This document shows, piece by piece, positions 9,285-25,279 of a stretch of 26,882 nucleotides of DNA. Position 1 is the stretch's first letter, and every line of letters starts with the position of its first letter. The stretch spans positions 1 through 26,882 of the IMG/VR virus record IMGVR_UViG_3300013102_000065; one strand, written 5' to 3'. This stretch comes from a virus. The position numbers and the translations under genes were made by a program. Below the pieces are notes generated by a model, which was given only the letters and a program-made list of their open reading frames with translations, was not told the DNA's origin and ran no database searches.

Positions 9285-9628
9285 AGGCGGCTCATTCGCT
9301 GGGTATTTCGTTGAAGCGGTTTCATGGGTGGGAGCCTGTGACGGTTCATGAGTATCGGGCGGGTGTGTTGGTTTCTTCGCGTCCTGAGGTTGAGTGGGAT
9401 GACGCTGAGCAGACTGTGATGTTGGCTTTGCAGTATTACCAGAATGGGTTGTGCCCGAAGTGTGGTGGCCCGTTGTCAGTTTGTACTGATGCGGCTAATG
9501 AGATGCGTTTTGATGCTGGTCTGCCGATTAGGTGCCATGCGACTACTGCTCGTGGGCGTGCTGCTGAGAAGTACAGGGATCAGCCTGGGTCTGAGGCGTT
9601 GATGTTTGTTCCCCGGTTGCGGGATTAG
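8748..9628 (+). CDS. Tail assembly chaperone G-T fusion (-1 frameshift)
   Basis: The long chaperone form of about 293 aa, made when ribosomes slip back one base at C CCT TTT (9233-9239). After the slip the reading continues as FAQRIQDDPGLRAEVEAAH, then SLGISLKRFHGWEP, the classic opening of actinophage gpT regions. The new frame stays open to TAG 9626-9628. The T part carries a small zinc-ribbon-like cluster, CPKCGG then a CTDA cysteine and a later RCHATT. An ATG at 9311 lies inside this frame but has no supporting ribosome site. The fusion is inferred from frame logic and family knowledge. Confidence 0.88.
9233..9239 (+). other. Programmed -1 slippery heptamer CCCTTTT
   Basis: In the zero frame the bases read C CCT TTT, a perfect X XXY YYZ heptamer. 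Slippage repairs tRNA pairing as CCC TTT and joins the two chaperone frames. It lies 16 codons before the zero-frame stop at 9282-9284, the usual arrangement for G/GT chaperones. Confidence 0.9.
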
Positions 9629-9876
9629 CGCTTCTCGACTGCTGCGAGGACCCGCCTTGCGTATCCCACAAGGACGAGGACTGCGCCAGCAACAAGCAGG
9701 ATTATCGCGCCCACGCTTGGCCCTTGTGTTTGTACCATTCCTACGCCTGAGACGTAGTTGGTCACGGGGTTTGCCAAGTTGAAGATCAGCAAAACAACCC
9801 CAAGAACTAGTACGACGATGCCGGCTGTCATGAGCCGTGTTCCTGGTCGCTGCTTTTCCCCAACTGTTTTTGTCAT
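9625..9876 (-). CDS. Small two-helix membrane protein on reverse strand
   Basis: An 83-aa protein encoded against the tail operon, between chaperone and tape measure genes. Two membrane segments are clear: about residues 17-35 (AGIVVLVLGVVLLIFNLA) and 54-75 (VGAIILLVAGAVLVLVGYA), separated by a short polar loop. The C-terminus is basic (RRVLAAVEKR). There is no Shine-Dalgarno, but TAGAAT lies exactly 6 bases upstream of the ATG, an arrangement expected of leaderless actinobacterial mRNAs. Its stop overlaps the chaperone stop in the opposite direction. It may be an extra gene expressed from the prophage, for instance in exclusion of other phages; that role is speculation. Confidence 0.75.
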   Translation of the reverse strand: MTKTVGEKQRPGTRLMTAGIVVLVLGVVLLIFNLANPVTNYVSGVGMVQTQGPSVGAIILLVAGAVLVLVGYARRVLAAVEKR

Positions 9877-9925: not shown

Positions 9926-12889
9926 ATGGCGGACCGGTCAATCAGTATTGCTCTTGAGGCTAAGGTTCAGGGTTTTGTTGCTGGGATGAAGACCGCTCAG
10001 CAGGCGGCTTCTGATTTCGCTAACCGGACGGCGAAGTTCGCTCGGGATAATGAGGAACATTTCGACCGTGTTGGTAAGGCGTCCATGGTCATGGGTGGGG
10101 CGTTGTTGGGTGGCGCTGTTCTGGCTGTGAAGTCGTTTATGGAGTTCGACTCTGCTATGGCTGAGGTGAAGGCCTCGACGCATGAGACTGCCGGGAACAT
10201 GGATTTGTTGCGGGAGGCTGCCATCAATGCGGGCGCTGATACGGCGTTCTCTGCGAAGGAAGCTGCGCAGGGCATTGATGAGTTGGCTAAGGCTGGCGTT
10301 TCCACGAAGGACATTCTTGGGGGTGGCCTTAAGGGTGCGTTGTCGTTGGCTGCTGCTGGTTCGTTGGAGGTTGCGGAGGCTGCGGAGATTAGCGCTTCGG
10401 CGTTGACCCAGTTCAAGCTTTCTGGTGATAAGGTCCCTCACCTTGCGGATTTGTTGGCTGCGGGTGCTGGTAAGGCTCAGGGTTCGGTGCATGACCTTGG
10501 TATGGCGTTGAATCAGACGGGTCTTGTTGCTGCGTCTACTGGGTTGACGATTGAGGAAACCACTGGCGGGTTGGCTGCGTTTGCGTCTGCCGGGTTGATT
10601 GGTTCTGATGCTGGCACGTCCATGAAGACGATGTTGCAGCGCCTTACGCCTCAGTCTAAAGAGGCTGCGGACAAGATGGCTGAGTTGGGCATTAGTGCTT
10701 ATGACGCTCAGGGTAATTTCATTGGGTTGTCGAAGTTCTCGCAGAACTTGAAGGACTCGATGCGGGACCTGACCCCGGAAGCCCGTAATGCGGCTATGGG
10801 TGTGATGTTTGGTTCTGATGCTGTGCGTGCGGCGAATGTTCTGTATGAGCAGGGCGCTGATGGTATTTCGAAGTGGATTGAGAACGTCAACGACGCGGGC
10901 TATGCGGCTGTCACTGCAAGCATCAAGCAGGACACGTTGGCTGGAGATCTTGAGAAGTTGGGCGGGTCGTTTGATTCGGTTCTGATCAAGGGCGGTGGTG
11001 CTGCTGCTGAGGCTTTGCGTGGCATCGTGCAGGGCGCTGAGGATCTTATTGATGCTGTCGGTAAGATCCCAACGCCTGTTCTGAATGCCGCTGTTGGTAT
11101 TGCTGCCGTGACTGGTGGTGCTTTGCTGCTGGGTGGGGCGTTCTTGACTGCCCTGCCTCGGCTGGTGGAGTTCAAGTCTTCGTTGGACAACATTGCGCCG
11201 GCTGGGTCTAGGGCTCGTGGTGCTATCACTGGTGTTGGTAAGGCTGCTGGTATCGCCACTGTTGCGCTTGTTGGTTTACAGATCGCTGGGGCAGTGTTCA
11301 GTGACAAGCAAACCAAGTCAGCGGAGGACTTCGGGCAGGCTTTGTTGAAGGTCCAGAAAATCTCTGGGGCTAACTCTGGTAAGGGCCTTGATGAGATGTT
11401 CCAGGGATGGGACAAGATCATCACTGGCGAAACTGTCTCGACTGTGAATGATTTGTCTTCTGCTGTTGAGCGGTTGACTCATCAGGGCAGCAAGGACTGG
11501 ATTGACACGAACATCGCTGATCCGCTGAACCGTCTGCTTGGGTTCTCTGTGTCTGACGTGGCCCAGATTGAGGAACGGTTCAAGGGTCTTGGCGAGTCCA
11601 TGGGCGAGGTTACCCGTAATGGTGGTGCTGAGACGGCGGCTAAGTCGTTCCAGGCGTTGAGTGCTGAGTTCCAGAAGAACGGCAAGAGTGCGAAGGAAGC
11701 ACTGGATGTTGTCCCTGGCTATAGGGACGCATTGAAGGGCCTCGCTAATCCGGCTGGTGTGACGCTGAATGACCAGGAGTTGCTGGACTTTGCCATGGGT
11801 AAAGTCCCCGACTCCATGCTCAAGGCTGGTGGCGCTGTTGAGACTTACACGACGAAGGTTGGCAACGTTGCGCCGCTGAGCGACGAAATGGCTAAGGCGC
11901 TTGAAGATGTTGGGATTAGCGCTGACGGCGCGGTGATTTCGGTTGACGCCTTCACTAAATCGTTGTTCAACGCTGGCTTGTTGCATTTGTCCGCATCTGA
12001 CGCGGCGATTGCGTATGAGGCTGCTATCGACTCGGTGACTGCTTCGATTGCTACTAATGGCAAGACGCTTGACATTACGACTGAGGCGGGTCGGAATAAC
12101 CAGAAGTCGTATAACGATCTGGCGAAGGCTGCGATGGATGTTGCTACAGCGACCGCCGAGGAAACTCTTAAGACGCAGGGTTCCGCTGCTGCTCAGGGTC
12201 AGCTGCAAGCCGGGTTGGCTCAGAGCTACAAGGACCTGATTACTGCGGCAGGCCAGTTTGGTATTACTGGGGATGCCGCGGACGATATGGCTCGCAAGGC
12301 TTTGGGCATCCCGAAGGAAGTCCCGATTGAGGCGTGGGTTAATGATCACGCTTCAACGACCCTTGATGGCATTAAGGGCAAGGCTGATGGGTTGAACGGC
12401 AAAGTTGTGGACATCTACGCGTATACGCATGACATCACATTGAAGAAGACCATTGAGGACCCGGAGGGTATGGGCTCAAGTATCGGAGGTAGGGCTAACG
12501 GATCCCTTCGAGGCGGGTTGGCTACGGGCGGTCGTGTTCATGGTCCTGGCACTGGCACCTCTGATGAGGCGGGGCTGTTTGACTTGTCGAACGGCGAGTA
12601 TGTGTTGCGGGAGTCGGCGGCGCGAGCTATCGGTTATGACAAGTTGGACCGGATTAATGGCGGGGCTGTGCATGAGATGCGCCCAATGCGTTATGAGTAT
12701 GCGCCGGCTGGGGCGCCCACTGTGACGGCGCGTCCTGCTCAAGCTCCTGTGGCTCCTGCCCAGTCGCCACCTGTGTATGTGCAAAACCCGTTCACTGGGG
12801 AGTATTTGTTGGCGCAGGTTGGTTCTGTCGCTAATGGTGCTATCAAGGCCGCTGATTCTTCTACTAGGTACGCGAGGGTTGGTTCCTGA
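9926..12889 (+). CDS. Tail tape measure protein
   Basis: A 987-aa tape measure that sets tail length and helps DNA entry. The ATG at 9926 has AGGAGG at 9913-9918, 7 bases away. The conserved tape-measure core begins near residue 72 (EFDSAMAEVKAST) and includes NAGADTAFSAKEAAQGIDELAK and TGLTIEETTGGLAAFASAG. Two hydrophobic stretches lie at about 385-412 and 441-460. The rest is mostly helical with repetitive A/K/D composition, then a proline-rich C-terminus. At about 0.15 nm per residue this implies a tail near 150 nm. It overlaps the next gene by one base (TGATG). Confidence 0.96.
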   Translation: MADRSISIALEAKVQGFVAGMKTAQQAASDFANRTAKFARDNEEHFDRVGKASMVMGGALLGGAVLAVKSFMEFDSAMAEVKASTHETAGNMDLLREAAINAGADTAFSAKEAAQGIDELAKAGVSTKDILGGGLKGALSLAAAGSLEVAEAAEISASALTQFKLSGDKVPHLADLLAAGAGKAQGSVHDLGMALNQTGLVAASTGLTIEETTGGLAAFASAGLIGSDAGTSMKTMLQRLTPQSKEAADKMAELGISAYDAQGNFIGLSKFSQNLKDSMRDLTPEARNAAMGVMFGSDAVRAANVLYEQGADGISKWIENVNDAGYAAVTASIKQDTLAGDLEKLGGSFDSVLIKGGGAAAEALRGIVQGAEDLIDAVGKIPTPVLNAAVGIAAVTGGALLLGGAFLTALPRLVEFKSSLDNIAPAGSRARGAITGVGKAAGIATVALVGLQIAGAVFSDKQTKSAEDFGQALLKVQKISGANSGKGLDEMFQGWDKIITGETVSTVNDLSSAVERLTHQGSKDWIDTNIADPLNRLLGFSVSDVAQIEERFKGLGESMGEVTRNGGAETAAKSFQALSAEFQKNGKSAKEALDVVPGYRDALKGLANPAGVTLNDQELLDFAMGKVPDSMLKAGGAVETYTTKVGNVAPLSDEMAKALEDVGISADGAVISVDAFTKSLFNAGLLHLSASDAAIAYEAAIDSVTASIATNGKTLDITTEAGRNNQKSYNDLAKAAMDVATATAEETLKTQGSAAAQGQLQAGLAQSYKDLITAAGQFGITGDAADDMARKALGIPKEVPIEAWVNDHASTTLDGIKGKADGLNGKVVDIYAYTHDITLKKTIEDPEGMGSSIGGRANGSLRGGLATGGRVHGPGTGTSDEAGLFDLSNGEYVLRESAARAIGYDKLDRINGGAVHEMRPMRYEYAPAGAPTVTARPAQAPVAPAQSPPVYVQNPFTGEYLLAQVGSVANGAIKAADSSTRYARVGS

Positions 12890-13749
12890 TGGCTGTTGCT
12901 GTGACTGTTGAGGTCATCATGGGGACACCGGATCGTGCTGGGTTGACGATCACTTGGCTTGGCGTTGGTGAGTCTGTTGTGAATGTTTGGCAGATGGCTG
13001 ATGGTGAGCGGAACCGGGTGCCTGGGTATCGGCGTGTGACGATGAATGATGCGTCGTATGTGGTTGATTATTATGCGCCGTTGCAGCGTCCGGTGACGTA
13101 TGAGGTTGAGGTTGTGTCTGGGCCGAATGGTCCGTCTCGCACGGTATCGGAGCCGGTGACTATTCCGTCTGTGACTGGGTTCCTGATGGATGCGTTGGTT
13201 CCTCAGACTGCGGTTCCGGTGGTTGGTGATTCGGACAGGGCCGGGGATTTCTATTTGAGGTCTTCGGCCTTGGCTGAGATGGAGTACCGGGCTGAGGTTT
13301 CGATTTTCAATGTGATGGGTTCGGATAAGCCGTTGGCGTTGTTTGGTCAGCGTATGGCTGAGATGAATCTTGATACGTCGTTGGGGATTAATTCGGCTGA
13401 GGAAAATGCCCGGTTGAAGAAGTTGCTGCGGTCTACGGGGCAGTTGTTGTTTAAGCCGTTGCCGTCGTGGGGTGGGCTTGAGTTGTCGGGGGCTATGTCG
13501 TTGGCGAATGCATCGGCTAAGCAGGTCCCGGTGAATGTGACGTTTGGCGGGGATTTGACGTGGTGGGAGCTTAAGTCGGATGTTGTGGCCCCGCCGACGA
13601 TCCGTGTTTTGACGGCTGAGTTCACGTATGGGGATGTAGCCCTGCTCTTTAGTACGTATCAGGCGAAGCTGGATACGGTGGTTGCTTCGGCTGCTGCTGC
13701 GGGTGAGTCGCCTACGTATTTGTACGATTTGAAACGTCCGCTTGGTTAA
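12889..13749 (+). CDS. Distal tail (Dit-like) / minor tail protein
   Basis: A 286-aa beta-rich protein immediately after the tape measure, where siphoviruses encode the distal tail hub protein. Features: an N-terminal fibronectin-like segment (GLTITWLGVGESVVNVWQ, then VVDYYAPLQRPVTYEVEV) and a later WGGLELSGAMSLANA region ending in VRVLTAEF-like strands (here IRVLTAEFTYGDV). The ATG at 12889 overlaps the tape measure stop. Its last 38 bases are overlapped by a reverse-strand gene ending at 13712. Role inferred from order and the beta-sandwich look; a named family is not certain. Confidence 0.75.
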   Translation: MAVAVTVEVIMGTPDRAGLTITWLGVGESVVNVWQMADGERNRVPGYRRVTMNDASYVVDYYAPLQRPVTYEVEVVSGPNGPSRTVSEPVTIPSVTGFLMDALVPQTAVPVVGDSDRAGDFYLRSSALAEMEYRAEVSIFNVMGSDKPLALFGQRMAEMNLDTSLGINSAEENARLKKLLRSTGQLLFKPLPSWGGLELSGAMSLANASAKQVPVNVTFGGDLTWWELKSDVVAPPTIRVLTAEFTYGDVALLFSTYQAKLDTVVASAAAAGESPTYLYDLKRPLG

Positions 13750-13888
13750 CGTCATCAACGATTGACGCGACGGCGGGGAACAGCTCGCTGCATTCCTCGC
13801 AACTGATGATGTGCGGGGCGTCTTTCACTAGATCAAACGGGTCATCCATTGTCGGGTGCTTGATGCCTTGCTGGTCAACGCGACTCAT
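13712..13888 (-). CDS. Small CxxC protein, coupled reverse gene
   Basis: A 58-aa reverse-strand frame whose ATG (13888-13886) overlaps the stop of the upstream reverse gene as ATGA. The protein is acidic with SCEECSEL near residues 29-36 and a hydrophobic PAVASIV stretch, ending in DVSNRTNT. The 4-base coupling and clean opening suggest it is real. It overruns the 3' end of the distal-tail gene by 38 bases. I do not recognise the family. The CxxC pair could bind a metal as a dimer or form a disulfide. It may cooperate with the neighbouring 82-aa protein. Confidence 0.55.
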   Translation of the reverse strand: MSRVDQQGIKHPTMDDPFDLVKDAPHIISCEECSELFPAVASIVDDVNQADVSNRTNT

Positions 13889-14133
13889 GACTCGTCCGCT
13901 TGGGTGGGCCCAGCCGCGTGGTCGATCTGGTTCTTGACGCGTTCCCAGTTGAACGGATCTGGCCGTAGTTCGGAGTGCCGTTGTTCTGCTGCGATGAGTT
14001 TCTGCACAACATCCTCACCGACAGTCCGTGCGGCGGCGTGAGCGAATAGGTTCTCCATCTTCGCCCGAACGTCAAAGAAGTAACCGAATGATGCAGCCCC
14101 GATAGCGGCGAATGCTGCGCTGTTAATCGTCAT
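13885..14133 (-). CDS. Small paralogous protein A (tail-operon copy)
   Basis: An 82-aa protein of unknown function on the reverse strand inside the tail module. The ATG at 14133 gives MTINSAAFAAIGAAS; an upstream in-frame ATG at 14160 would add 9 residues but has no ribosome site. TAAACT lies 5 bases before the chosen ATG, resembling a leaderless promoter. Its key block AKMENLFAHAAA, then DVVQKLIAAE, matches the gene at 22087-22380 (AKMEGLSAPAAA, DVVRGLIEAE): 18 of 27 residues agree. The protein is helical, with no signal peptide or clear membrane span. It is followed by a coupled CxxC protein, suggesting a two-gene accessory unit. Confidence 0.72.
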   Translation of the reverse strand: MTINSAAFAAIGAASFGYFFDVRAKMENLFAHAAARTVGEDVVQKLIAAEQRHSELRPDPFNWERVKNQIDHAAGPTQADES

Positions 14134-14138
14134 CCCTA

Positions 14139-14144
14139 AGTTTA
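14139..14144 (-). promoter_or_regulatory. -10 element for reverse paralog A
   Basis: Minus-strand TAAACT ends 5 bases before the ATG at 14133. This is close to the 6-7 base gap of leaderless actinobacterial promoters. No convincing -35 box is visible. Confidence 0.35.
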
Positions 14145-14177
14145 ACGGTTGCCCGCCCATTTTAATAGGAGTCTTCT

Positions 14178-14591
14178 GTGCGTCTGATTGATGAGTTGTC
14201 GTTGGATGCGTTGGAGGGTTCTAGGCCTGCTGATTCGTTGACGGTGTGGGCGTGGCGTGGTGATTCGCTGGTGGTTGCTGAGCCGTTGGAGGTCATTAGC
14301 TGGGGGGCTGATGATCAGGCCGGGGATAACGTGAAGGTCGGGCAGAAGGTGTCCCTGACTGTCGCGGATCCTGACGGGACGTTGGGGGCTTGGCGGTTGG
14401 ATGACCCGTTAGCTGTCACTGGTGCGCGGTTGCAGATCATTTACCGTGTCGGCGGTGCTGGTGCGGTGAATATGGGATGTACCGGGTCACGTCGAATGAG
14501 CCTGATGAGGTTACCGAGTCGAGGGTTGTTGATGAGTATGGGTATGAGGAACCTGACGGCTTGCTTGAACCGCATAAGCGTCGGGTGCTGA
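14178..14591 (+). pseudogene. Minor tail protein, N-terminal part (frameshifted)
   Basis: The GTG at 14178 has AGGAG upstream and begins MRLIDELSLDALEGSRPADS. Good tail-protein sequence runs to IIYRVGGAGAVNMG (about residue 100, position 14476). Beyond this the frame gives unrelated, serine/arginine-rich residues to the stop at 14591. The proper continuation is the frame starting MYRVTSNEPDE at 14477. The family normally reads straight through here as one protein of about 430 aa, so one G appears lost from the GGG at 14474-14476, or the base call is wrong. No slippery heptamer is present, so programmed slippage is unlikely. Confidence 0.75.
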
Positions 14592-15472
14592 TCACTCGGA
14601 GCGTTGTCCGGCTTGAGGCTGTTGATCTAACGGTTGAGCCTGATCGTGACCGTTTTGAGGCGCCTGAGTCTCCGGGTTCTGGTGCGACTGTGATTAGCGA
14701 GGTTCAGCGTTTGTTGACTCCGTATTTCCCGGTGGTTGTGGATCCTGGTGTCGGTGATGTTGGGGTGTCGCGGCAGTTGGTGTTTGATCGTGAACGTTTG
14801 GAGGCTGTGCAGGATCTTCTTGGCAGGGTGTCCGCTCGTTACCGCATGGGTGGTGATGGTGAGTGTCACGTGTATCCGCGTGCTGCCAACCCTGTGTGGC
14901 GTGTGGGTCCTAATGAGGGTCTTGTCAAGGTTGCTCGTAAGCAGTCGTTTGATGGTTTGTATAACCGTTGGGTTGTTGAGGGTAAGGAAGAAGGCTCTGG
15001 TAACCCGGTTCGGGCTGCCGTGTCGATTGATAGCGGGCCGTTGAAGTATGGTGGCCCGCACGGCAAGGTGCCTACCTTTTACAGCTCTGAGATGATCACG
15101 ACGACTGCCGCGGCTGTTCTGTATGCGATTGAGTTGCGGGATAAGTTCTTGGCGTCTCTCGCGTTGGAGCTGAACGTTGAGTGTGTGCCGCGTCCTGAGT
15201 TGCAGGCTGGTGATCGTATTGAGGTTGGTTGTCCGTTCGCTGGCAGGGTCGCTTGGATCCCTGGCGAAATCACGAGTATCAAACGTTCTGGCACAACCGT
15301 TCCTGGCCCCACCTCTTTGACTGTGGTGTGCGCTTATGGTGACGTGATCGGCGCTCTGGAACGTACTGACTGGGCGCAACACCTGACCGGGAATTTGCCG
15401 CCGCTTACTTGGGATCGGATGCCTTCTACGTGGGGTGCTGGTCCTGTCATGTCTTGGGACGATCTACCTTAA
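14477..15472 (+). pseudogene. Minor tail protein, C-terminal part (frameshifted)
   Basis: 331 aa in the -1 frame relative to the upstream part, overlapping it by 115 bases. It contains the bulk of the minor tail protein: VLITRSVVRLEAVDLTVEPD, GATVISEVQRLLTPYFP and NPVWRVGPNEGLVKVARKQ, with WDRMPSTWGAGPVMSWDDLP-type Trp-rich sequence at the end. The frame could start at ATG 14477, but no good ribosome site precedes it. It most likely forms one gene with 14178-14476 (baseplate/tail-tip protein). If the frameshift is genuine the phage might make a broken tail tip unless this ATG is used. Confidence 0.75.
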
Positions 15473-15480
15473 GGAGACGC

Positions 15481-16443
15481 ATGGGCTTGGATCATACGCT
15501 TGCTGCGATGCCTTCGGGTGGGATTACCCGCAAGTATGGGAAAGCTTATTGGGACGGTTCGCGGTGGTGGGCGGATGTTGGCGGAAACTTGCTTGACGCG
15601 AGATGGGCCGACCCGATACAGCCTTTGCAGGGCGGCAACATTGTTGTTGACATTACGACGGAGGGTCGGGGTTTGTCTTCGGCTTTCGTGGTTGCTGGGT
15701 TCACGGATCAGCCCCGCCCGTCTACTGGTACGGCGTCGGCGGTTATTCCTGCTGGTTTGGCTACTTTGATTGTTTTTGTTGGTGAGGATGGGGTTACTTA
15801 CGAGACGGATCGTTTTATTGGTTCGTATTCTCCGGGGGATCCTATCTATCTGACGTGGGATGCGGGTAAGCCTACGGTTATTGGGAAGATCCAGGCGTTG
15901 GCGCCGCCGCCTCCTGCACCGCCTCCCCCACCGCCGCCTGTGGTGTCCACTGGTACTGAGGTGTTGACGGCTACTGCTAGTGACACGTTTGGTGTTGGTG
16001 GTTGGGGTCGTTGGGCTGGTGGTGGCGAGAAAGTCTATTCGGGTTCGTATGGCGGTTACACGCTGACGGGCTCGTTTTTTTATGGGGCACCGCGTCCTGC
16101 GTTGCAGGGTAAGACAATCACGGCGATCCGGTTTAGGATCCCGCAGCGTCTCACGGTCGGTTCGTATAACTCTGCTGCCATGGTGCATTTGTATGCGCAT
16201 CCGTCGCAGGCCCGCCCTGGTGGTGACGTTGCCCGTGTCGCCGGTCCTTTTGATATTTCGGTTACGGCTGGTCAGGGCCCGTCGTGGGTGAACGTTTCTT
16301 CCGCTCACCCCGCGTTTGCGGGTATCGCATCGACCCTCGCTAACGGCGGCGGTATTAGTTTCGCGGGCGACCCATACACCGGCTGGACAAGCCGACTCAC
16401 AGACCCACTCGCTGGGCAAATCGAACTTGATTGGAGCGCCTAG
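15481..16443 (+). CDS. Minor tail protein with poly-proline hinge
   Basis: A 320-aa tail protein. The ATG at 15481 is chosen because AAGGAGA overlaps the previous stop at the right distance; the frame is open upstream to 15409. Residues of about 1-138 form a beta-rich N-terminal domain (KYGKAYWDGSRWWADVGGN; TLIVFVGEDGVTYETDRF). Residues 141-154 are nearly all proline (APPPPAPPPPPPP), a rigid spacer. The C-terminal half looks like a carbohydrate-binding jelly-roll (ITAIRFRIPQRL; WVNVSSAHPAF). It ends in TAGTG with the next gene. Likely an exposed tail-tip or adhesion protein; exact ligand unknown. Confidence 0.75.
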   Translation: MGLDHTLAAMPSGGITRKYGKAYWDGSRWWADVGGNLLDARWADPIQPLQGGNIVVDITTEGRGLSSAFVVAGFTDQPRPSTGTASAVIPAGLATLIVFVGEDGVTYETDRFIGSYSPGDPIYLTWDAGKPTVIGKIQALAPPPPAPPPPPPPVVSTGTEVLTATASDTFGVGGWGRWAGGGEKVYSGSYGGYTLTGSFFYGAPRPALQGKTITAIRFRIPQRLTVGSYNSAAMVHLYAHPSQARPGGDVARVAGPFDISVTAGQGPSWVNVSSAHPAFAGIASTLANGGGISFAGDPYTGWTSRLTDPLAGQIELDWSA

Positions 16444-17021
16444 TGCATACTCTTGAAAACGGTGTTGTGGTTCCTACGAACTCTGACCCTTACAACCTGA
16501 CCGATGATTTGGGGAATGCTTTCAAGCAGGTTCCTGGTGCGGTGCGTGTTAGTTCGCAGGCTCAGCGTGATGCGTTGACGAAGTACACGGGTTTGCGGGT
16601 GCAGCGCATGGATTTGCCGGGTCATCCTGATGATATTTGGGATGGGTCTGCTTGGTTGCCGTTGGCTCCTGCGGTGTTGTCGTTTTCGGCGAATTATCGG
16701 CAGGCTGGGACGTGGTTTCTGGATGCGTTGCGGCCCGCGTCGGTGTCTCGTATCGGCAGGCGCGTGTCGCTGTCTGGTGCGTTGGCGAACAATGTGCCGA
16801 TCACGTATTTGGCGAACACTGAGTACACGTTGGCGACGTTCCCTGTGGAGTACGCACCGAAGACCTATTCGGAACCGTTCGTTATTCTGACGAACGCGTA
16901 CCAAGTGAACGTGTGGGTCACCCCCGCAGGGCAGATCAAAATCTACTTCCTTGTGAACGTCCCCACCCAATCAGTCGGGGCGCTCGTGTTCCCCCTCTCA
17001 ATGATGTCGTGGAACTCATGA
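16443..17021 (+). CDS. Minor tail / fibre-like protein
   Basis: A 192-aa tail protein starting at GTG 16443, which overlaps the previous stop (TAGTG) and has GGAG at 16433-16436. The N-terminal half has TLENGVVVPTNSDPYNLTDDL and DIWDGSAWLPL, a common opening of actinophage tail-fibre proteins. The C-terminal half is beta-rich (EPFVILTNAYQVNVWVT; IKIYFLVNVPTQSVGALVFPLS), resembling a small trimerising fibre tip. It overlaps the following membrane gene by 4 bases (ATGA). It is the last gene before the lysis cassette. Function is inferred. Confidence 0.72.
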   Translation: MHTLENGVVVPTNSDPYNLTDDLGNAFKQVPGAVRVSSQAQRDALTKYTGLRVQRMDLPGHPDDIWDGSAWLPLAPAVLSFSANYRQAGTWFLDALRPASVSRIGRRVSLSGALANNVPITYLANTEYTLATFPVEYAPKTYSEPFVILTNAYQVNVWVTPAGQIKIYFLVNVPTQSVGALVFPLSMMSWNS

Positions 17022-17464
17022 GGGACCTGAAAGCGTATAGACGGGTCGTGATCGGCAGGAACATCACCCTCACTGCTGGGGCGGTCCTGGCGTTCACTCG
17101 TGGCCTGTCATACGCAAACATCAACCCTGCTGCCCTCAACCAAGGACAGTCTCTTGTCACGTTTGACGGCAGGATCCTTGGTTTGTGGGCTGCTGTGTGG
17201 TTCACCGCGGCGATCCTTTGCGTAGCTGACATGATCAACCGTCACACCCGCTACGGCCTTTCGCTCTTGGTTGGTGCTGTCGCGGCGTGGGGTGTTGGGT
17301 ATTTGATCGCGTGGGCGGCGACAGGGTTTACGAACCCGGAATTAGCTCAGGCGGCGATGATCTGGCTGACACCTGCTGGTCTTGTCCTTGGGTTCCTTAT
17401 CAAGGTCACTGCGCTTCAGGACATGCTTAGGCGGAAACAGCCACCGGGTGGTGCCGGTGAATGA
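17018..17464 (+). CDS. Multi-span membrane protein near lysis cassette
   Basis: A 148-aa protein with about four membrane helices: residues of about 16-30, 53-70, 77-98 (GLSLLVGAVAAWGVGYLIAWAA) and 112-130 (MIWLTPAGLVLGFLIKV), with a basic C-terminus (DMLRRKQPPGG). The ATG at 17018 overlaps the tail gene stop. It lies two genes before endolysin. It could be a second holin or an accessory lysis protein, but helix number alone does not prove this. The next gene begins inside its 3' end. Confidence 0.68.
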   Translation: MRDLKAYRRVVIGRNITLTAGAVLAFTRGLSYANINPAALNQGQSLVTFDGRILGLWAAVWFTAAILCVADMINRHTRYGLSLLVGAVAAWGVGYLIAWAATGFTNPELAQAAMIWLTPAGLVLGFLIKVTALQDMLRRKQPPGGAGE

Positions 17465-17780
17465 ATGGGCAATAGTCGGGTCGGTTGCGGTGGCTGCTGT
17501 CACTGTTTGCGGGACGTGGCTGGCGACGAAGATCCAGCATAAAGGCAAACCTGAGAACGCGTTGATTGATCAGCTTCAGGAGCAGATCAAGGATGACCGG
17601 GAAGCCAAGGATAAAGAGATGTCGGTGATGCGCGCTGATATTGCTGAGCTGAAGGCTGAGCAGAACAAGGCGCGCCGACGCGAGATGATCCGCGATAACT
17701 ACATCAACCGCCTGCGGGATCACATTAACGCTGGCAACCCTCCCCCTCCGCCTGAATGGCCTGAGGGGCTTTACGACTAG
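17457..17780 (+). CDS. N-anchored coiled-coil protein (possible holin or spanin-like)
   Basis: A 107-aa protein from GTG 17457; an in-frame GTG at 17448 is an alternative. Residues of about 4-22 form one membrane helix (AIVGSVAVAAVTVCGTWLA). A charged coiled coil follows (LIDQLQEQIKDDREAKDKE onward, to about residue 85), and the end is proline-rich (NPPPPPEWPEGLYD). One helix plus coiled coil resembles DUF2746-like proteins placed near lysins in actinophages. It overlaps the upstream membrane gene and sits 8 bases before endolysin, so a lysis role is likely but unproven. Confidence 0.65.
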   Translation: MNEWAIVGSVAVAAVTVCGTWLATKIQHKGKPENALIDQLQEQIKDDREAKDKEMSVMRADIAELKAEQNKARRREMIRDNYINRLRDHINAGNPPPPPEWPEGLYD

Positions 17781-17788
17781 GACACCAT

Positions 17789-18478
17789 ATGGCTAAGCAG
17801 TTGGTTCAACCTAATCCGAACATTCCTTGCAAGCCGGGTTGGTGCTTGCAGTATGTGCGGGAGGCGTTCGGTATTTACCCTGGCGTTTACCCCTCCGCTA
17901 CGGCTGGGTGGGCCAATGCCCAGTACAAGCACCCTGGCGAGTTACCGCCCCGTGGCGTCTGGACGGTGCTGTGGTTCTTCATGGAAGACGAACCGTTGGG
18001 GCACGTGGTTCTTGGCGCCCCTGACGGTTCGGTCTATTCCACCAGCGACCCGTCCACGGTGCCGCACCATCACTCTAGTCTCGCTGACCTGATGGGTTAC
18101 TACGCCTACTGGGGCCTGCCACTCACGTACCTCGGCTGGTCCGAGGACATCGAGCGTGTGCGGGTGGTCGAGGTCAGCGACTCCATTGAATACGCCGGCG
18201 AAGTCACCACACCCACCCCTGTTACGGAAGAAGTAGATTTCATGACTGACATGCACGAATTCCTCAACACCCCGGCTTTCACTGGCGGCCCCACGATCTC
18301 CGAAATGTTCAAGGAGACTCACGCCGTCCATGAGGCGATCTTCAACAACGACGGCACGAACGAGTCCATCTTGGGCGGGTTCTCCATCAGCGGCCTGGAC
18401 AACCACAACGCGGGCAAGATCCTCGAGTCTCTCTCCGCGCTGCAGTCTGCCGTCCAGCAGCTTCAAGCGAAAGGCTGA
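17789..18478 (+). CDS. Endolysin, CHAP/NlpC-like cysteine amidase/peptidase
   Basis: A 229-aa endolysin that should cut host peptidoglycan. The N-terminal catalytic domain shows PCKPGWCLQYVREAFGI with candidate nucleophile C19, a GHVVLG histidine H72, then DGSVYSTSD and the ending YLGWSEDIERVRVV, a pattern I recognise from CHAP/NlpC-type lysins. The C-terminal about 80 residues are helical (HEFLNTPAFTGG; ILESLSALQSAVQQLQAKG) and contain no clear SH3, LysM or other wall-binding repeat. AGGA at 17779-17782 precedes the ATG. A holin follows after 3 bases. Bond specificity cannot be read from sequence. Confidence 0.85.
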   Translation: MAKQLVQPNPNIPCKPGWCLQYVREAFGIYPGVYPSATAGWANAQYKHPGELPPRGVWTVLWFFMEDEPLGHVVLGAPDGSVYSTSDPSTVPHHHSSLADLMGYYAYWGLPLTYLGWSEDIERVRVVEVSDSIEYAGEVTTPTPVTEEVDFMTDMHEFLNTPAFTGGPTISEMFKETHAVHEAIFNNDGTNESILGGFSISGLDNHNAGKILESLSALQSAVQQLQAKG

Positions 18479-18481
18479 GTT

Positions 18482-18817
18482 GTGGAGAACACTGAGCTTC
18501 TGGTCACTGTGGTGACGGCAGCGCTGGCCATCTTCGCGCCGTTGGCGATTGCGTGGGCTAAGCGTGAGTCGTGGTCGCGGTTGGTGCGGGTGGCTGTGCC
18601 GATCCTGGTGAGCGTAATCCTGGCGGCGGTGTACATCGTGCTGCGTGGCCGGCTGGTGCTGGTCACTTTGGAGGACTACTTGAACGCGTTCCTCGTCTTC
18701 TACGGCCTCCAGCAACTCGCGTACACCACCCTGCTGCGCTGGTGGGCCAGCATCCTCGAAAAGGTCGGCAACCAGCCCACCGCCGAGGACGACGACGCCC
18801 CAGCTCACCGCGCCTAA
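18482..18817 (+). CDS. Holin
   Basis: A 111-aa protein from GTG 18482. Three hydrophobic helices are visible: about 7-25 (LVTVVTAALAIFAPLAIAWA), 36-55 (VAVPILVSVILAAVYIVL) and 60-80 (VLVTLEDYLNAFLVFYGLQQLA). The C-terminus is acidic then basic (AEDDDAPAHRA). Small size, several helices and position right after endolysin are typical of class I/II holins, which form lethal membrane holes at a set time. Assignment is from topology and context. Confidence 0.78.
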   Translation: MENTELLVTVVTAALAIFAPLAIAWAKRESWSRLVRVAVPILVSVILAAVYIVLRGRLVLVTLEDYLNAFLVFYGLQQLAYTTLLRWWASILEKVGNQPTAEDDDAPAHRA

Positions 18818-18838
18818 CAAACCGGATAGGAGGCCCCT

Positions 18839-19114
18839 GTGGCCGTAGAAACCACGCCTCTGGGTTTCAAGAAACCGGACGGCAATGACCCTGTCCGGAA
18901 TGGTGAGAACCATATTGCGACGAACGCCCAACGGTCACAGGACCTCCTCGCCCCAACGCTCGAGCGGCTGGGGGCCGCGGAGGCTGCTATCAACGCTGGC
19001 GCGGGCGGGCCGGGCCTGTCCGAAGACCCGCTCCACCCGGGGCTGTACTACTTCGCTGGCCACGCCTTCACCGCCGACCCTGACCACCCCGGCCTTTACC
19101 TGATTGGAGAGTGA
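18839..19114 (+). CDS. Small tail-fibre N-terminal-like protein
   Basis: A 91-aa protein from GTG 18839 with AGGAGG at 18827-18832. It opens with TTPLGFKKPDGNDPVRNGENHI, which I recognise as the N-terminus of many actinophage tail-fibre proteins that usually continue into larger domains. A short helix (LLAPTLERLGAAEAAINAG) is followed by two copies of a D-P/HPGLY motif (DPLHPGLYYF; DPDHPGLYLI). Here the protein ends there. It begins a three-gene group with YD-like and SGNH proteins. Likely part of a split adhesion device or an anchor. Confidence 0.7.
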   Translation: MAVETTPLGFKKPDGNDPVRNGENHIATNAQRSQDLLAPTLERLGAAEAAINAGAGGPGLSEDPLHPGLYYFAGHAFTADPDHPGLYLIGE

Positions 19115-19118
19115 CCGC

Positions 19119-19427
19119 ATGGTCAACAAGCTTGTTTCTGTTGGTGATGATCTAACCCTCCCGGCGCCTGTGAAGGTGGCTGACACAAACCTCCCGGCCC
19201 GACTCCAGGACACGGCACTTAATGCCACTTATGTCCCTGGCTTCGCACCGTCCACGAGCATCATTTACAACGGAGCTGGTCAGGTCACCAGCTCCACAGA
19301 GAACGGCATCACCACCACGTACACCTACAACACTGACGGCACGGTGAACACCGAAACTCGGCTAGGCAAGGTCCGCACGTGGGCCTACGACGCAAACGGC
19401 AACCCTACTAGCTCGACGGTGGTCTGA
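19119..19427 (+). CDS. Small tail protein with YD/RHS-like repeat
   Basis: A 102-aa protein from ATG 19119, with GGAGAG ahead. Residues of about 1-40 contain LPAPVKVADTNLPARLQDTALNATY, a segment that often precedes SGNH domains in actinophage tail proteins. The rest carries YD-like repeats: YNGAGQVTSSTENGITTTYTY, then TDGTVNTETR and YDANGNPTSS, as in RHS/YD proteins and other prophage tail genes. It lies just before the SGNH hydrolase and probably belongs to the same appendage, as separate chains. Such repeats bind carbohydrate or form a shell in other systems; here the function is unknown. Confidence 0.72.
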   Translation: MVNKLVSVGDDLTLPAPVKVADTNLPARLQDTALNATYVPGFAPSTSIIYNGAGQVTSSTENGITTTYTYNTDGTVNTETRLGKVRTWAYDANGNPTSSTVV

Positions 19428-19429
19428 TC

Positions 19430-20695
19430 ATGGATGTTGTAACCCTCGGCGCCGCAAAGGCGTACATGAAGCGGGAGCGCGAGAGCGGCATTCTGCGGCC
19501 CGCTGGCTACAGGTTCATGCCCATTGGTGACTCCATCACCTACATGGACGCTGGCAACCTCTCTGACAACCCGCTGCTGCCAGTCACCACGGCATACGCT
19601 ACGGGCGCGACGTCAGCAGGGATGTTCGCTTGGGCGAACGCCCAGCTTGGGCACCGCCTCAAGATGGCTGGCAACGGCGGCGTTCCTGGCGATACCTCGG
19701 AGCAGGTTCTTGCACGGCTTGACTCGCTGTTGGCTGTGCCGTCTGACATTGTTTCCGTTCACTGCGGGGCCAACGATTTCTCGCAAGGTTGGGCAGCATC
19801 CCGCACAATCACTGCACTTACGGCCATCTACGCCAAGGTACGAGCCAGCGGACGGCGGCTCGTGGTCCTCACAACCATGTCCCGGTCCACGATGAACAAC
19901 GCTGGCGGCTACGCCTACCTTGCTATCGTCAACCAGTTCATCAAGGACTACGCCCGCAAAACCCCTGGCGTGATCCTCGCGGACATCTCATCCGCAATGA
20001 CCGACCCGGCAACAGGCATCCCATACATCTCGCCGTTCCACACAGCGGACGGAACACACCCCAACGCCATTGGCGCACAAGCCATGGGCAGGGTGCTTGC
20101 TGATGCACTGCGCCCATTCTTCCCCGCGGCTGACGTGTTCTCATCGAACAACAACGACCCGCTGAACTACATGCGAAACGCCTGCAACCTCGGCACCGGT
20201 GGGACCATCGCGAACGGCATCACTGGCACGCCAGGAACTCAGTGGGGACTCTCTGCCAGCGGCGGCACGGTGGACTGTGCAGTCTCGAAGGTAGCCCGCA
20301 CTGACGGGATGCCCGGCGAATGGACGCGCCTCGCAATCGGGGCGACAAACACGGCCAATGTTGTGGCATCAGGTGGTGTCTGGTGGGATTTGACCGGCGC
20401 GGCAGGCTTGAAGCCGGGCGATGTTGTAACTGCCGCCGTCGAAGTCCGCACGACAGGGCTGGTGGGCGTCTCCCAGTTCAACGGCGGTGTGTTCCACCCG
20501 AACAGCCAAGCGCTGGACCTCAAGAACATCTGGCAGCAAGGATCAGGCGCCGTGCGGGATAACACCTACACGCTCATGGTTGAGGGCGCGGTCATCCAGC
20601 CTTCAGCCACCTACCTGCAGGCCCGCGTGTCTGTGACCGCCACCGGGGGCATGGTGGACATCGGACGCTGCACGGTGTTCAAGACGCCCGCATAA
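19430..20695 (+). CDS. SGNH/GDSL hydrolase, tail-associated
   Basis: A 421-aa hydrolase. Block I is PIGDSIT with nucleophile S35; block II-like GVPGDTS and block III GANDF follow; block V is ADGTHPN with D207 and H210, giving the expected catalytic set. These enzymes remove ester groups or cleave surface glycans, so a tail-borne deacylase of host wall polymer is a fair inference. Residues beyond about 235 form a second beta-rich domain (WTRLAIGATNTANVVASGG; LQARVSVTATGGMVDIG) like a carbohydrate-binding module. It starts 2 bases after the previous stop. Codon use here is C-rich, unlike the T-rich head and tail genes. Confidence 0.88.
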   Translation: MDVVTLGAAKAYMKRERESGILRPAGYRFMPIGDSITYMDAGNLSDNPLLPVTTAYATGATSAGMFAWANAQLGHRLKMAGNGGVPGDTSEQVLARLDSLLAVPSDIVSVHCGANDFSQGWAASRTITALTAIYAKVRASGRRLVVLTTMSRSTMNNAGGYAYLAIVNQFIKDYARKTPGVILADISSAMTDPATGIPYISPFHTADGTHPNAIGAQAMGRVLADALRPFFPAADVFSSNNNDPLNYMRNACNLGTGGTIANGITGTPGTQWGLSASGGTVDCAVSKVARTDGMPGEWTRLAIGATNTANVVASGGVWWDLTGAAGLKPGDVVTAAVEVRTTGLVGVSQFNGGVFHPNSQALDLKNIWQQGSGAVRDNTYTLMVEGAVIQPSATYLQARVSVTATGGMVDIGRCTVFKTPA

Positions 20696-20713
20696 GGGGC
20701 TACATAAGACCGG

Positions 20714-20860
20714 TTATGTTCCCGCGCGTATGACGACGGCTTTGCACCCTTCCGGGATGAGTTCGCGCGCTTTGGTGTACGCGTCCGTGTAGTCCGTGCC
20801 AACAGCGGACACGTGCCCGATACCGCCCTCACTGTCTTCCACGGTCAAAGTAACTTCCAT
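20714..20860 (-). CDS. Small conserved-looking protein, 48 aa
   Basis: A 48-aa reverse gene: an acidic beta-like start (MEVTLTVEDSEGGIGHVSAVG), then a helix and strand (AYTKARELIPEGCKAVVIRAGT). The AR-LIPEG and AVVIR ending resembles small hypothetical proteins of actinobacterial phages. TAGGCT lies exactly 6 bases before the ATG, suggesting a leaderless transcript; no Shine-Dalgarno is present. It lies between the hydrolase gene and the integrase terminator. Function unknown. Confidence 0.68.
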   Translation of the reverse strand: MEVTLTVEDSEGGIGHVSAVGTDYTDAYTKARELIPEGCKAVVIRAGT

Positions 20861-20866
20861 GCCACA

Positions 20867-20872
20867 AGCCTA
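20867..20872 (-). promoter_or_regulatory. -10 element for 48-aa reverse gene
   Basis: Minus-strand TAGGCT, 6 bases before the ATG at 20860, as in leaderless actinobacterial genes. Just upstream is the T-rich tail of the integrase terminator, and no -35 box is seen. Confidence 0.45.
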
Positions 20873-20884
20873 ACCAAACAAAAC

Positions 20885-20920
20885 GCCCCCACCCTCGCAT
20901 AAAAATGCGAGGGTGGGGGC
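20885..20920 (-). terminator. Strong terminator downstream of integrase
   Basis: GCCCCCACCCTCGCAT (20885-20900) and its exact complement (20905-20920) form a 16-bp stem with an AAAA loop. On the minus strand it is followed by GTTTTGTTTGG, a T-rich tail. It ends leftward integrase transcription and, less surely, rightward read-through from the late operon. Confidence 0.88.
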
Positions 20921-20939
20921 CATTTGTGCGTTAAATGGG

Positions 20940-22094
20940 CTACTCGACAACTATCTCTGGTATCTCCCCGAGGGCCTTTGCTGCGTGTTCGGCGCCGCGG
21001 AAGTGGGCTTCAGGGAGAAGGTGGGCATAGAGGTCAACCGTCATTTGGATGGAGTTGTGTCCGAGCCGTGCTGAGAGTTCATACATGGACATACCAGCCT
21101 GGAGCATGATGGCGGCGTGGAGATGCCTGAGTGAGTGGACGGTGACGTGTTTGCCGGCCCCTGGTCCTAACCCTGCTGCGGCACGGGGTTTACTCCATGC
21201 CCGATTGTAGAAGGCTTGGTGTGTCATTTCGCCGCCTTCTTTCATGGTGAACACGTTGCCCCCGTCTTTGAGTACACGGGCAACCAGAGGCGCGATGACT
21301 TCCGCGGTTGATGGTGCGAGGCTGACACGTCGGCGTGACTTTGCTGACTTGGGATCGCCTATGTAGCGGGCGGGTGATTCGTCGCCGCCTAGTTTGTGGG
21401 CTTTGGTGATGTACACGAGAGGCGGTTTCCCTGACAGGTCAAAGTCAGGTCCCGTCAAGGCTGAGGCTTCACTGAACCTGCAACCAGACCCTACGAGGAA
21501 GTCAACGAACGGGCGGAAGTGGGAATCCATGCGGTCACGTATGGCCCTGTAATCGTCCATCGTGATGTCGTCCCCATCGTCACCCACCCTGCGCTTCTTA
21601 GGCATGCGTACGCCGTCACATGGGTTCCTGGGGATTGTTCCCAGCCGAACCTGCGTGAGCATGGCGGCACTGAGTAGGCCGTGTTTGTCGGCGATGGTCT
21701 TGGGTGCTTTACCCCGGCCCTGCATCCAGCGGATCCAGTCAACAATGTCACCATGGGTCAGGCCCGTTACTTTCAGTTCACCTAACGGCCCGTTGAAGTG
21801 GTTGGTAACTGCCGCCCGGTAGCGTTTGATGGTGTACGGGGTTACGTCCACAAGCTGGTTGAGGTGTCGCTCCAACGCCTCAACCACTGTGGGGCCTTCA
21901 AGTTTCGCGTTGGCATACATTTTCTCGGCAGCTTTGAATGACTGCCCGTTCGCATCCAACAACCGCTGCCACAACTCCGCCTCATCCCGGCTACCGAACG
22001 TCTCGGATTCGGCCTTACGGGTTACCGGGTCACGCCACTTCAACTGCCAACTCGACGGCCCCCTCTTACGCGGACGCTCATGAACACTAGCCAC
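20940..22094 (-). CDS. int: Tyrosine integrase
   Basis: A 384-aa site-specific recombinase for integrating the phage at a host attachment site. The N-terminus (residues of about 1-55) looks like an arm-binding domain (SSWQLKWRDPVTRKAESETF); a core-binding SAM-like domain spans about 68-165. The catalytic domain holds R206 (GCRFSEA), a beta-hairpin lysine (K249 or K252), H320-x-x-R323 (HSLRH), H346 (LGH) and nucleophile Y356 (DLYAHL). All key residues are present. The start is GTG at 22094, which overlaps the stop of the upstream small gene (GTGGCTAG), so the two are coupled. A tRNA-like attachment core lies about 380 bases upstream. Confidence 0.95.
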   Translation of the reverse strand: MASVHERPRKRGPSSWQLKWRDPVTRKAESETFGSRDEAELWQRLLDANGQSFKAAEKMYANAKLEGPTVVEALERHLNQLVDVTPYTIKRYRAAVTNHFNGPLGELKVTGLTHGDIVDWIRWMQGRGKAPKTIADKHGLLSAAMLTQVRLGTIPRNPCDGVRMPKKRRVGDDGDDITMDDYRAIRDRMDSHFRPFVDFLVGSGCRFSEASALTGPDFDLSGKPPLVYITKAHKLGGDESPARYIGDPKSAKSRRRVSLAPSTAEVIAPLVARVLKDGGNVFTMKEGGEMTHQAFYNRAWSKPRAAAGLGPGAGKHVTVHSLRHLHAAIMLQAGMSMYELSARLGHNSIQMTVDLYAHLLPEAHFRGAEHAAKALGEIPEIVVE

Positions 22095-22380
22095 GGGCGC
22101 TTGTGAAGTCGTCCAGTTTAGGGGCTACACCGATCATGCCAGCGTCATAATAGTCGCCAAGAGCATTTTGAAACCGAGCCATCTGCAATCTGGCGTCTTC
22201 TGCTTCGATTAGTCCTCGCACAACATCGGCGCCGGTAGTAAGAGCCGCTGCGGGCGCGGACAGACCTTCCATCTTCGCCTGTATCTGAGCCGCGGTACGT
22301 CTAGAAGCTGCCCCAATGGCTCCGAATGTCGCATGCGAATTGACCATAACTGTGTCACCGTTCAGAGTATTTTGTTGCAT
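22087..22380 (-). CDS. Small paralogous protein B (integrase-linked copy)
   Basis: A 97-aa protein in the same transcript as integrase, with the stop overlapping its GTG. The ATG at 22380 is used; an internal ATG at 22347 (MVNSHATFGAIGAAS) would match the start of paralog A and give 86 aa. The shared core is AIGAAS, then AKMEGLSAPAAA, then GADVVRGLIEAE. The C-terminal part (LGDYYDAGMIGVAPKLDDF) differs from paralog A. There is no recognised domain. Coupling to integrase could mean a role in recombination or lysogeny, but the other copy is far from integrase, so this remains open. Confidence 0.75.
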   Translation of the reverse strand: MQQNTLNGDTVMVNSHATFGAIGAASRRTAAQIQAKMEGLSAPAAALTTGADVVRGLIEAEDARLQMARFQNALGDYYDAGMIGVAPKLDDFTSARG

Positions 22381-22404
22381 CACTCTAATTTTCCCATTAT
22401 TTTT

Positions 22405-22634
22405 GGGAACAGTCCAGCGGTTCTAGGGAACACGGCCTGAAACTTCCGCGGGTTCTAGGGGTGAAATGGGTGGAGCTAAGGAGATTCGAACTCCTGACAC
22501 ATTCCTTGTGATAGCCCGGTTTTGGTAAAGACTAATCCTCAAAACAGCCTTTTTTGGTGGGAAACACCACCCAAGAACACCCAATAATGTTCCCTGCGGG
22601 AACAGCATTTTCCCCGTGGGAACACGTGGGAACA
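22405..22634. repeat. Repeated GGGAACA boxes around attachment core
   Basis: Exact GGGAACA occurs at 22405-22411, 22426-22432, 22598-22604, 22618-22624 and 22628-22634, and inverted as TGTTCCC at 22588-22594, where it makes TGTTCCC-TGC-GGGAACA. Two boxes are left and four right of the tRNA-like core. This clustering fits arm-type integrase binding sites. Confidence 0.6.
22471..22498 (-). other. attP: Attachment core (attP) with tRNA 3' end
   Basis: Read on the minus strand, this segment is TCAGGAGTTCGAATCTCC followed by TTAGCTCCA, a T-arm with GTTCGAATC and the 3' acceptor strand of a tRNA. The TTAGCTCCA end suits an actinobacterial tRNA-Ala, though this is from memory. No complete cloverleaf is present, so it is a fragment kept to restore a host tRNA after integration. 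It lies upstream of integrase with phage genes on both sides, so attP is more likely than attL or attR. Confidence 0.75.
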
Positions 22635-22652
22635 CCCGGTTTGTTACGCGCA

Positions 22653-22684
22653 AAGGCCCCTACCCTGGCCGGGGTAGGGGCCTT
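22653..22684. terminator. 13-bp hairpin after leftward operon
   Basis: AAGGCCCCTACCC (22653-22665) pairs perfectly with GGGTAGGGGCCTT (22672-22684) around a 6-base loop. T runs are weak on both sides. It lies downstream of the leftward operon ending at 22875, so it may stop that transcription from entering the attachment region. Confidence 0.6.
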
Positions 22685-23837: not shown

Positions 23838-24193
23838 TTCTTGAGCCAGCCTGTCGCTATCAAGCGGGCACGTAACCCAGCAGGCCACGGTTCTGGCTCT
23901 GGCGGGTTCGGTGTCTCACCGGGAGCGACTTCGCCGCTCCTGTAGGGGTTTCGTTCGTGGGCGTCGGGGTCGTCCATGTTCACGTCATGCATCGGCCCGC
24001 CCTGCTTGAACCCTTGATCCCATGCTTGCGCGGCGATGAACGGGGCCGCGGCTTCAATGACCAGCGCAGCTTGGTGCTCAGGGTGAGATAACCCAAGCCT
24101 CGACCAGCCGCACAGGCATGATCCTGCGCTCTGCCGCTGGTGGGCCACAAGAACTCGTGCTACCGCTTCTGCTGCCGCGTCACTTACATGCAT
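23834..24193 (-). CDS. Small CLCGW-type protein, 119 aa
   Basis: From ATG 24193 with AAAGGAGG 8 bases upstream; a longer open frame to 24271 is not favoured. The N-terminal half has DAAAEAVARVLVAHQ, then SCLCGWSRLGLSHPEHQAALV, a motif I recall from many small actinophage proteins. The second half includes HDVNMDDPDAHERNPY, a proline-rich linker, and AGLRARLIATGWLKK. It overlaps its neighbours on both sides. The CxC plus histidines might bind zinc. Function unknown. Confidence 0.7.
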   Translation of the reverse strand: MHVSDAAAEAVARVLVAHQRQSAGSCLCGWSRLGLSHPEHQAALVIEAAAPFIAAQAWDQGFKQGGPMHDVNMDDPDAHERNPYRSGEVAPGETPNPPEPEPWPAGLRARLIATGWLKK

Positions 24194-24517: not shown

Positions 24518-24669
24518 GCCTCCTCCGTTTTGCGCTGGTGCTGCCCTGTGCATCGGCATGGCTGCCCGATAGATGCGCTTGCGTGCGGGTTTCGCCATTC
24601 GTTGATGCCGTTGCAGTTGGCGCACTGCATGTTCTCGCACCAGAAGCAGCGTCCCGGATCGTAGCTCAT
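24514..24669 (-). CDS. Cysteine-rich small protein, 51 aa
   Basis: ATG 24669 overlaps the preceding stop (ATGA) and its TGA overlaps the next ATG. The protein contains CFWCENMQCANC at 8-19 (CxxC-x4-CxxC) and a later PCRCTG, six cysteines in all, a zinc-knuckle-like pattern. It fills exactly the space between neighbours. Likely nucleic-acid or protein binding, by analogy only. Confidence 0.68.
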   Translation of the reverse strand: MSYDPGRCFWCENMQCANCNGINEWRNPHASASIGQPCRCTGQHQRKTEEA

Positions 24670-24929
24670 GCTTCCTCCCGCAACGCCGCAACAACAGCAC
24701 GGGCCGTGTCAATGTGCCATGTCTTCGGGGCATAGCTCCAGCCAACACTCAAAGCGATAGTTCTCGCCGCTCGTTCTATCGCGGCCTCACTGACCTTGAA
24801 ATAGCCAGCCGCTAAGATCGCATCAGTCAGCTCGTGGTCCTGCTGATCGGGCGACTTGTAGCTGTTGACGGTCAGGTCTGGGCCGAAGTATCCGTAGATG
24901 ACCGCATGCAGCTCATCGTGCGCGGTCAT
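24666..24929 (-). CDS. Hypothetical protein, 87 aa
   Basis: ATG 24929 and TGA at 24668-24666 both lie in 4-base overlaps with neighbours. The helical sequence includes HDELHAVIYGYFGPDL, then DHELTDAILAAGYFKVSEAAIERAARTI and IDTARAVVAALREEA. No membrane span. Helical proteins of this type are common in early actinophage regions; function unknown. Confidence 0.72.
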   Translation of the reverse strand: MTAHDELHAVIYGYFGPDLTVNSYKSPDQQDHELTDAILAAGYFKVSEAAIERAARTIALSVGWSYAPKTWHIDTARAVVAALREEA

Positions 24930-25279
24930 GCCGTGTCACCACCCAACGCCTGGGTGAGTGCGGCGCGCAGGTCTTTTGCCGCCGTTCCTTTGCGCAGCGC
25001 AGGAGTCTCTTCCCAGTACGCCGCAAGCGTCTCCACGGCCTCTACTGCTGCGATGAGCTTGGCCTGATCCGTGGTGGCGTGGGCGATGAACTCGGCGTCA
25101 GCGAGGACGCGGGGCCCGTGCTTGTCACCGCATGACGCTACGAACGAAACCTGCTCTTGGTCGTGCACCACGTCTACCTCGTCATAGAGGTTGTCCTCCC
25201 GCGTTTCCCACGGTCCGGGGGTGGCTGCGGCGAGTCGGTCTTTCAGGGGCTGCAACAAGGACGGGATGCTGGCGGTCAT
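24926..25279 (-). CDS. Phage protein with ATPGPW motif, 117 aa
   Basis: A 117-aa protein with LKDRLAAATPGPWETRED near the N-terminus, a motif recurring in phage accessory proteins of Ea22-like type, and FIAHATTDQAKLIAAVEAVETL in the C-terminal helix. Both ends overlap neighbours by 4 bases. In other phages such proteins are non-essential early proteins; a specific role is not known. Confidence that it codes is high. Confidence 0.78.
   Translation of the reverse strand: MTASIPSLLQPLKDRLAAATPGPWETREDNLYDEVDVVHDQEQVSFVASCGDKHGPRVLADAEFIAHATTDQAKLIAAVEAVETLAAYWEETPALRKGTAAKDLRAALTQALGGDTA

Follow-up and report, generated by a model that had tools for sequence, protein, structure and literature searches.

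The closest described systems are phage morons, prophage accessory loci that are characteristically encoded antisense to the lytic genes (PMC7067206), and the lysogenically expressed defence genes of the actinobacteriophages Sbash (PMC6426596) and CarolAnn (PMC6426606), two-gene systems that have been compared to lambda RexAB. Prophage BTP1 makes an antisense RNA, STnc6030, that brings about superinfection exclusion (PMC7067206). Here we compare these systems with two related reverse-strand genes, P0001 and P0002, which occupy separate positions in a 26.9-kb virus contig whose whole stretch of 26,882 nucleotides is referred to as the window. We consider it fairly probable that these genes are paralogous cargo genes of the moron type, belonging to a new orphan family and loaded into two cargo slots.

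The kin of the contig are temperate Arthrobacter phages, and its terminase is 91-92% identical to the terminases of Persistence, Anekin, Phrank15 and Hestia. The contig encodes a tyrosine integrase and an IrrE-like peptidase, the latter adjoining a likely regulator identified by a weak match, and the P0001/P0002 family is therefore unlikely to be the immunity repressor. Relatives were retrieved using the tail protein encoded at 12889-13749 as the query. Within 24664-25272, short patches of DNA were 90-97% identical to two related loci (L018 and L019) in surroundings that were otherwise unmatched; some of the patches lie at gene junctions (stop/start ATGA) and are possible sites of mosaic recombination.

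P0001 (82 aa; 13885-14133, reverse strand) is the copy in the tail slot, and P0002 (97 aa; 22087-22380, reverse strand) is the copy between attP and the integrase gene. The preliminary description of this DNA had placed both open reading frames at these positions and had paired them by a shared AIGAAS and a block with 18 of 27 identical residues, all of which is correct. BLASTP aligned the two proteins with 28 of 49 residues identical and one gap (E 6e-12), and their local alignment score of 104 lay 16.8 SD above the mean of 2000 shuffles (mean 25.4, sd 4.7, maximum 51), so that the proposed homology holds; most relatives nonetheless lack the family. With P0002 as the query, the entire record gave matches at the places of P0001 and P0002 only.

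A third homolog of 75 aa was identified in a related contig (L009, IMGVR_UViG_3300013105_000031), where it lies on the reverse strand at the same tail-gene junction as P0001, to which it is 48% identical over 73 residues. The comparison of these two genes gave a dN of 0.35, a dS of 1.37 and a dN/dS of about 0.26, a ratio that is only rough because dS is near saturation, and the differences by codon position (20/20/34) fit a selected protein. The third homolog and the low dN/dS indicate that the family gene is real; its known members number three, in two contigs. All three share the core AKME(G/N/D)LxAxA...(V/I)VxxLIxxE, while PFNWExVxNQID is present in both tail-slot members and absent from P0002. 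As judged from their divergence (dS above 1), P0001 and P0002 are old paralogs and not the outcome of a recent duplication. The proteins are small, acidic, mostly helical and soluble-looking. AlphaFold modelled P0001 as an arrangement of three helices (pLDDT 72, pTM 0.53), and the model of P0002 was poor (pLDDT 67, pTM 0.34).

The searches for a named family agreed with the preliminary description, which had known of none. Pfam returned no family match above its cut-off, PHROGs no significant match, NCBIfam and PADLOC no match for the family, and Rfam no match. The best profile match among PDB sequences (E 0.11, exosome subunits) was regarded as chance, and the P0001 model found nothing below E 1 with Foldseek against PDB and viral models and a best Z of 2.2 with VIA-align; the protein may still have a known fold. 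Weak matches to Csn2, GapR, MHC_I and VbhA (E 0.006-0.03) were rejected as noise because each hit a different, unrelated family. Further copies were equally scarce. No relatives were found in viral contigs with P0001, P0002 or their two-row alignment, none in genome contigs with the two-row alignment, and a three-row alignment recovered nothing beyond the L009 homolog already described. That alignment revealed no additional copy in the complete records (16) from which the compared loci came, no member turned up in the four Arthrobacter phage isolates searched, and tblastn against phages and plasmids gave best E-values of 2-9, the level of chance. By these searches, P0001 and P0002 form a new orphan family, not described before.

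This rarity, together with the fast turnover of occupants in both slots, is what would be expected of passengers that mosaic recombination keeps only temporarily and that have scarcely any selected function, or none, in this phage. We consider this reading unlikely, as the protein is 48% conserved at near-saturated synonymous sites, which points to long-term selection somewhere. The third homolog, the signature of purifying selection and the nature of the two slots, one otherwise empty and the other variable, support the earlier proposal of a two-copy family with an accessory phage function, for which lysogeny, exclusion or regulation, as suggested there, would be conjectural roles.

In the tail slot, an inserted cassette of about 416 bp (13750-14165) separates two forward-strand minor tail protein genes, one to the left (12889-13749) and one to the right (14178-15472). 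The frame of the right-hand gene is broken in the contig, which has two frames in place of the single 431-432-aa ORF of most relatives; the break is due to a one-base difference near 14470 that is either a real mutation or a sequencing or assembly error. In at least 14 relatives the slot is empty and the tail genes lie 1-12 nt apart. The next tail gene starts 1-10 nt past the stop codon of the first in nine related loci (L007, L008, L010-L013 and L015-L017), and 11-12 nt separate the two in the isolates Persistence, Hestia, Anekin, Phrank15 and Bridgette. The placement of P0001 in the tail operon was thus right as to location, but the gene belongs to an antisense insert that most relatives lack. 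In G+C content the insert (0.565) matches its flanks (0.549 and 0.568) and hence gives no sign of a recent foreign origin.

L009 carries a different insert of about 533 bp at the same junction. As in the window, this insert codes on the reverse strand and retains TAGGAG before the next tail gene. The partner of P0001 is a 58-aa ORF downstream of it, whereas that of the L009 homolog is an 87-aa ORF upstream, which leaves the P0001 family as the constant part. The 58-aa ORF (13712-13888, reverse strand) contains one CxxC and starts within the end of P0001 (ATGA overlap), as expected from the coupling to a CxxC protein noted at the outset. Its final residues are encoded opposite the 3' end of the upstream tail gene; apart from this antisense end, no homolog of it was found, so that it is best called a putative gene. 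As for the neighbours of the homologs in general, the 58-aa ORF and the integrase do adjoin the two copies in the window, but the partner is another one in the L009 insert and the slot occupants vary.

Small antisense genes among the late genes are usual in this group. An 83-aa membrane protein is encoded on the reverse strand at 9625-9876, just before the tape measure gene and with a TAGAAT 6 nt before its ATG, and at this position four isolated Arthrobacter phages likewise have reverse-strand genes, most of whose products are annotated as membrane proteins. Separately, a motif encoded at 23999-24079, AAPxIAAQAWDxG, is common to several small proteins of related contigs, among them the product of the 87-aa gene of the L009 insert; it occurs in several copies in L018, and looks like the mark of a second multi-copy family of small genes that also sits in cargo slots.

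The tail cassette carries a promoter-like signal of its own. A putative -10 box, TAAACT (14139-14144, reverse strand), lies 5 nt before the ATG of P0001, and a similar GTTAAAATT stands ahead of the first gene of the L009 insert, such that both inserts begin with GTTAAA(C/A)TT, in which a TANNNT box precedes the first ATG by 5 or 6 nt. This arrangement was found at 10 of the 805 ATGs in the window, a count that is a rough guide since the pattern was seen before counting. A scan with the sigma-70 consensus found no promoter at the box. In Mycobacterium tuberculosis a TANNNT box is centred 7-12 bp upstream of 73% of primary start sites (PMC3898074), a frequency that makes a leaderless P0001 transcript plausible. 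No terminator was found at either cassette; on the reverse strand near 13.6-13.9 kb there was none, and the RNA downstream is not unusually stable.

With no terminator found to separate the cassette from the tail gene, an effect through RNA has to be weighed, in which a transcript from the cassette promoter would run antisense into the upstream tail gene and silence tail genes, whether those of the prophage or those of a relative that superinfects, and the protein would be secondary. The 58-aa ORF already overlaps the upstream tail gene in antisense, and STnc6030 provides a precedent. Two observations make this distinctly improbable as the main explanation, namely that the protein is conserved despite near-saturated synonymous change and that the second copy is not antisense to tail genes.

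The second copy lies between an attP-like tRNA 3' end and the integrase. The tRNA 3'-end-like sequence (22471-22498, reverse strand), as read from the sequence, is the likely attP core, and the tyrosine integrase gene (20940-22094, reverse strand) starts at 22094 and overlaps the end of P0002 at 22087 by 8 nt. Just downstream of the integrase gene, at 20885-20920, is a strong terminator-like hairpin of 16 pairs on the reverse strand. Between the attP-like core and P0002, at 22381-22460, TTCCC is repeated and inverted (GTTCCCTAGAAC, TGTTCCCAAAAATAATGGGAA), and these motifs are candidate integrase arm sites or an operator. P0002 is preceded and entered by a conserved slot leader (TTAGAGTG ATGCAACAAAATACTCTGAACGGTGAC; 22354-22390, reverse strand) common to two phages with unrelated slot genes, and the -10 hexamer before this leader is GAAAAT in the window and TAAAAT in L018 and L030.

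The integrase of L018 is 98% identical to that of the window and the DNA upstream of its slot gene is 86% identical (window 22353-22664), yet after an identical MQQNTLNGD leader its slot gene encodes an unrelated protein. L030, whose integrase is 45% identical, has a matching leader followed by a third unrelated protein in the slot, and L031, on the same contig as L009, has a fourth, short protein before its integrase. CGTGGCTAG is present at the integrase start in most of the 13 integrase loci compared, so that even the last two residues of P0002 (RG) derive from the slot. P0002 may itself start at M12 (22347) instead of at 22380, as the first Met of P0001 aligns with M12 and codons 1-9 (MQQNTLNGD) are the leader common to unrelated slot genes; the leader may then be untranslated and supply a GGGGA-like ribosome site for a start at 22347.

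The coupling to integrase put forward in the preliminary description stands as an 8-nt overlap of DNA, but it is unspecific, since unrelated genes precede a 98%-identical integrase; the overlap is a property of the slot, which argues against a role as integrase or excision partner. It is accordingly very unlikely that P0002 serves the integrase as a recombination directionality factor or in some other partnership, with the tail copy being a stray duplicate. Its place between attP and the integrase, overlapping the integrase start, would suit such a partner, but L018 has an unrelated slot protein, the contig of L009 has the tail copy and a different protein before its integrase, and no match to a helix-turn-helix or excise was found. 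Lastly, a part in a toxin-antitoxin system, in particular as Fic-inhibiting antitoxins like VbhA, is the least probable of these readings, since its one likeness is a weak Pfam match of P0002 alone to VbhA (PF18495; E 0.013, 15.9 bits) that does not reach the curated cut-off of 25.9 bits, neither P0001 nor the L009 homolog gave a match, the [ST]xxxE[GN] inhibitor motif occurs in none of the three members, no Fic motif was found in any frame of the window, and neighbouring proteins gave equally weak matches to other unrelated families.

We therefore return to cargo genes as the preferred reading. A tail slot that is empty or differently filled and an integrase slot whose occupants are swapped argue for optional cargo and not for working parts of the tail or integrase. 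Neither tail assembly nor integration would then need the family, and the empty sites suggest that it is dispensable for lytic growth. On this reading copy 1 is carried by a small antisense cassette between tail genes with its own promoter-like -10 box, and copy 2 fills a standing cargo slot between attP and the integrase, through which phages of the group swap small genes and retain the flanking leader and integrase start. The genes would be expressed from their own promoters, independently of the late genes, in the lysogen or in early infection. By analogy with the lysogenically expressed defence genes, the most likely role would be protection of the lysogen; more generally, the protein may benefit the lysogen or the infecting phage under certain conditions, for instance by excluding other phages or defending against them. 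A broader proposal, possible but doubtful at present, is that the fixed promoter and leader (ATGCAACAAAACACTCTGAACGGGGAC) and the integrase start bound a standard cargo port beside attP into which phages swap unrelated small genes, with the AKMExL family, as a new class of effector expressed in the lysogen, occupying both this port and another one among the tail genes. By itself the family would be another orphan accessory family. The case shows how the cargo of temperate actinobacteriophages can be organised by slots and not by which genes fill them, and it marks out a small undescribed family that is directly testable for a lysogen phenotype. Additionally, that a single genome has a paralog in each of two cargo sites suggests that protein dose or timing may matter.

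In comparison with known morons, the tail cassette similarly lies at a precise gene junction, is absent from close relatives, runs antisense and, tentatively, has a promoter of its own, but it differs in having no terminator that we could find and no base-composition contrast to its flanks, and in that a paralog here also adjoins the integrase. The genes of Sbash and CarolAnn are likewise accessory genes of temperate actinobacteriophages, and as theirs are expressed from the prophage they offer an analogy for the role proposed here; compared by description only, their membrane RexB-like partner contrasts with the short, acidic, soluble-looking proteins of this family. Finally, the slot genes of Persistence, Hestia, Phrank15, Tiff81, AbbyDaisy and other Arthrobacter phages encode other, unrelated small proteins, but they too are small genes upstream of the integrase, in the same slot and direction as P0002, and terminate at, or close to, the integrase start that P0002 overlaps, in most cases CGTGGCTAG.
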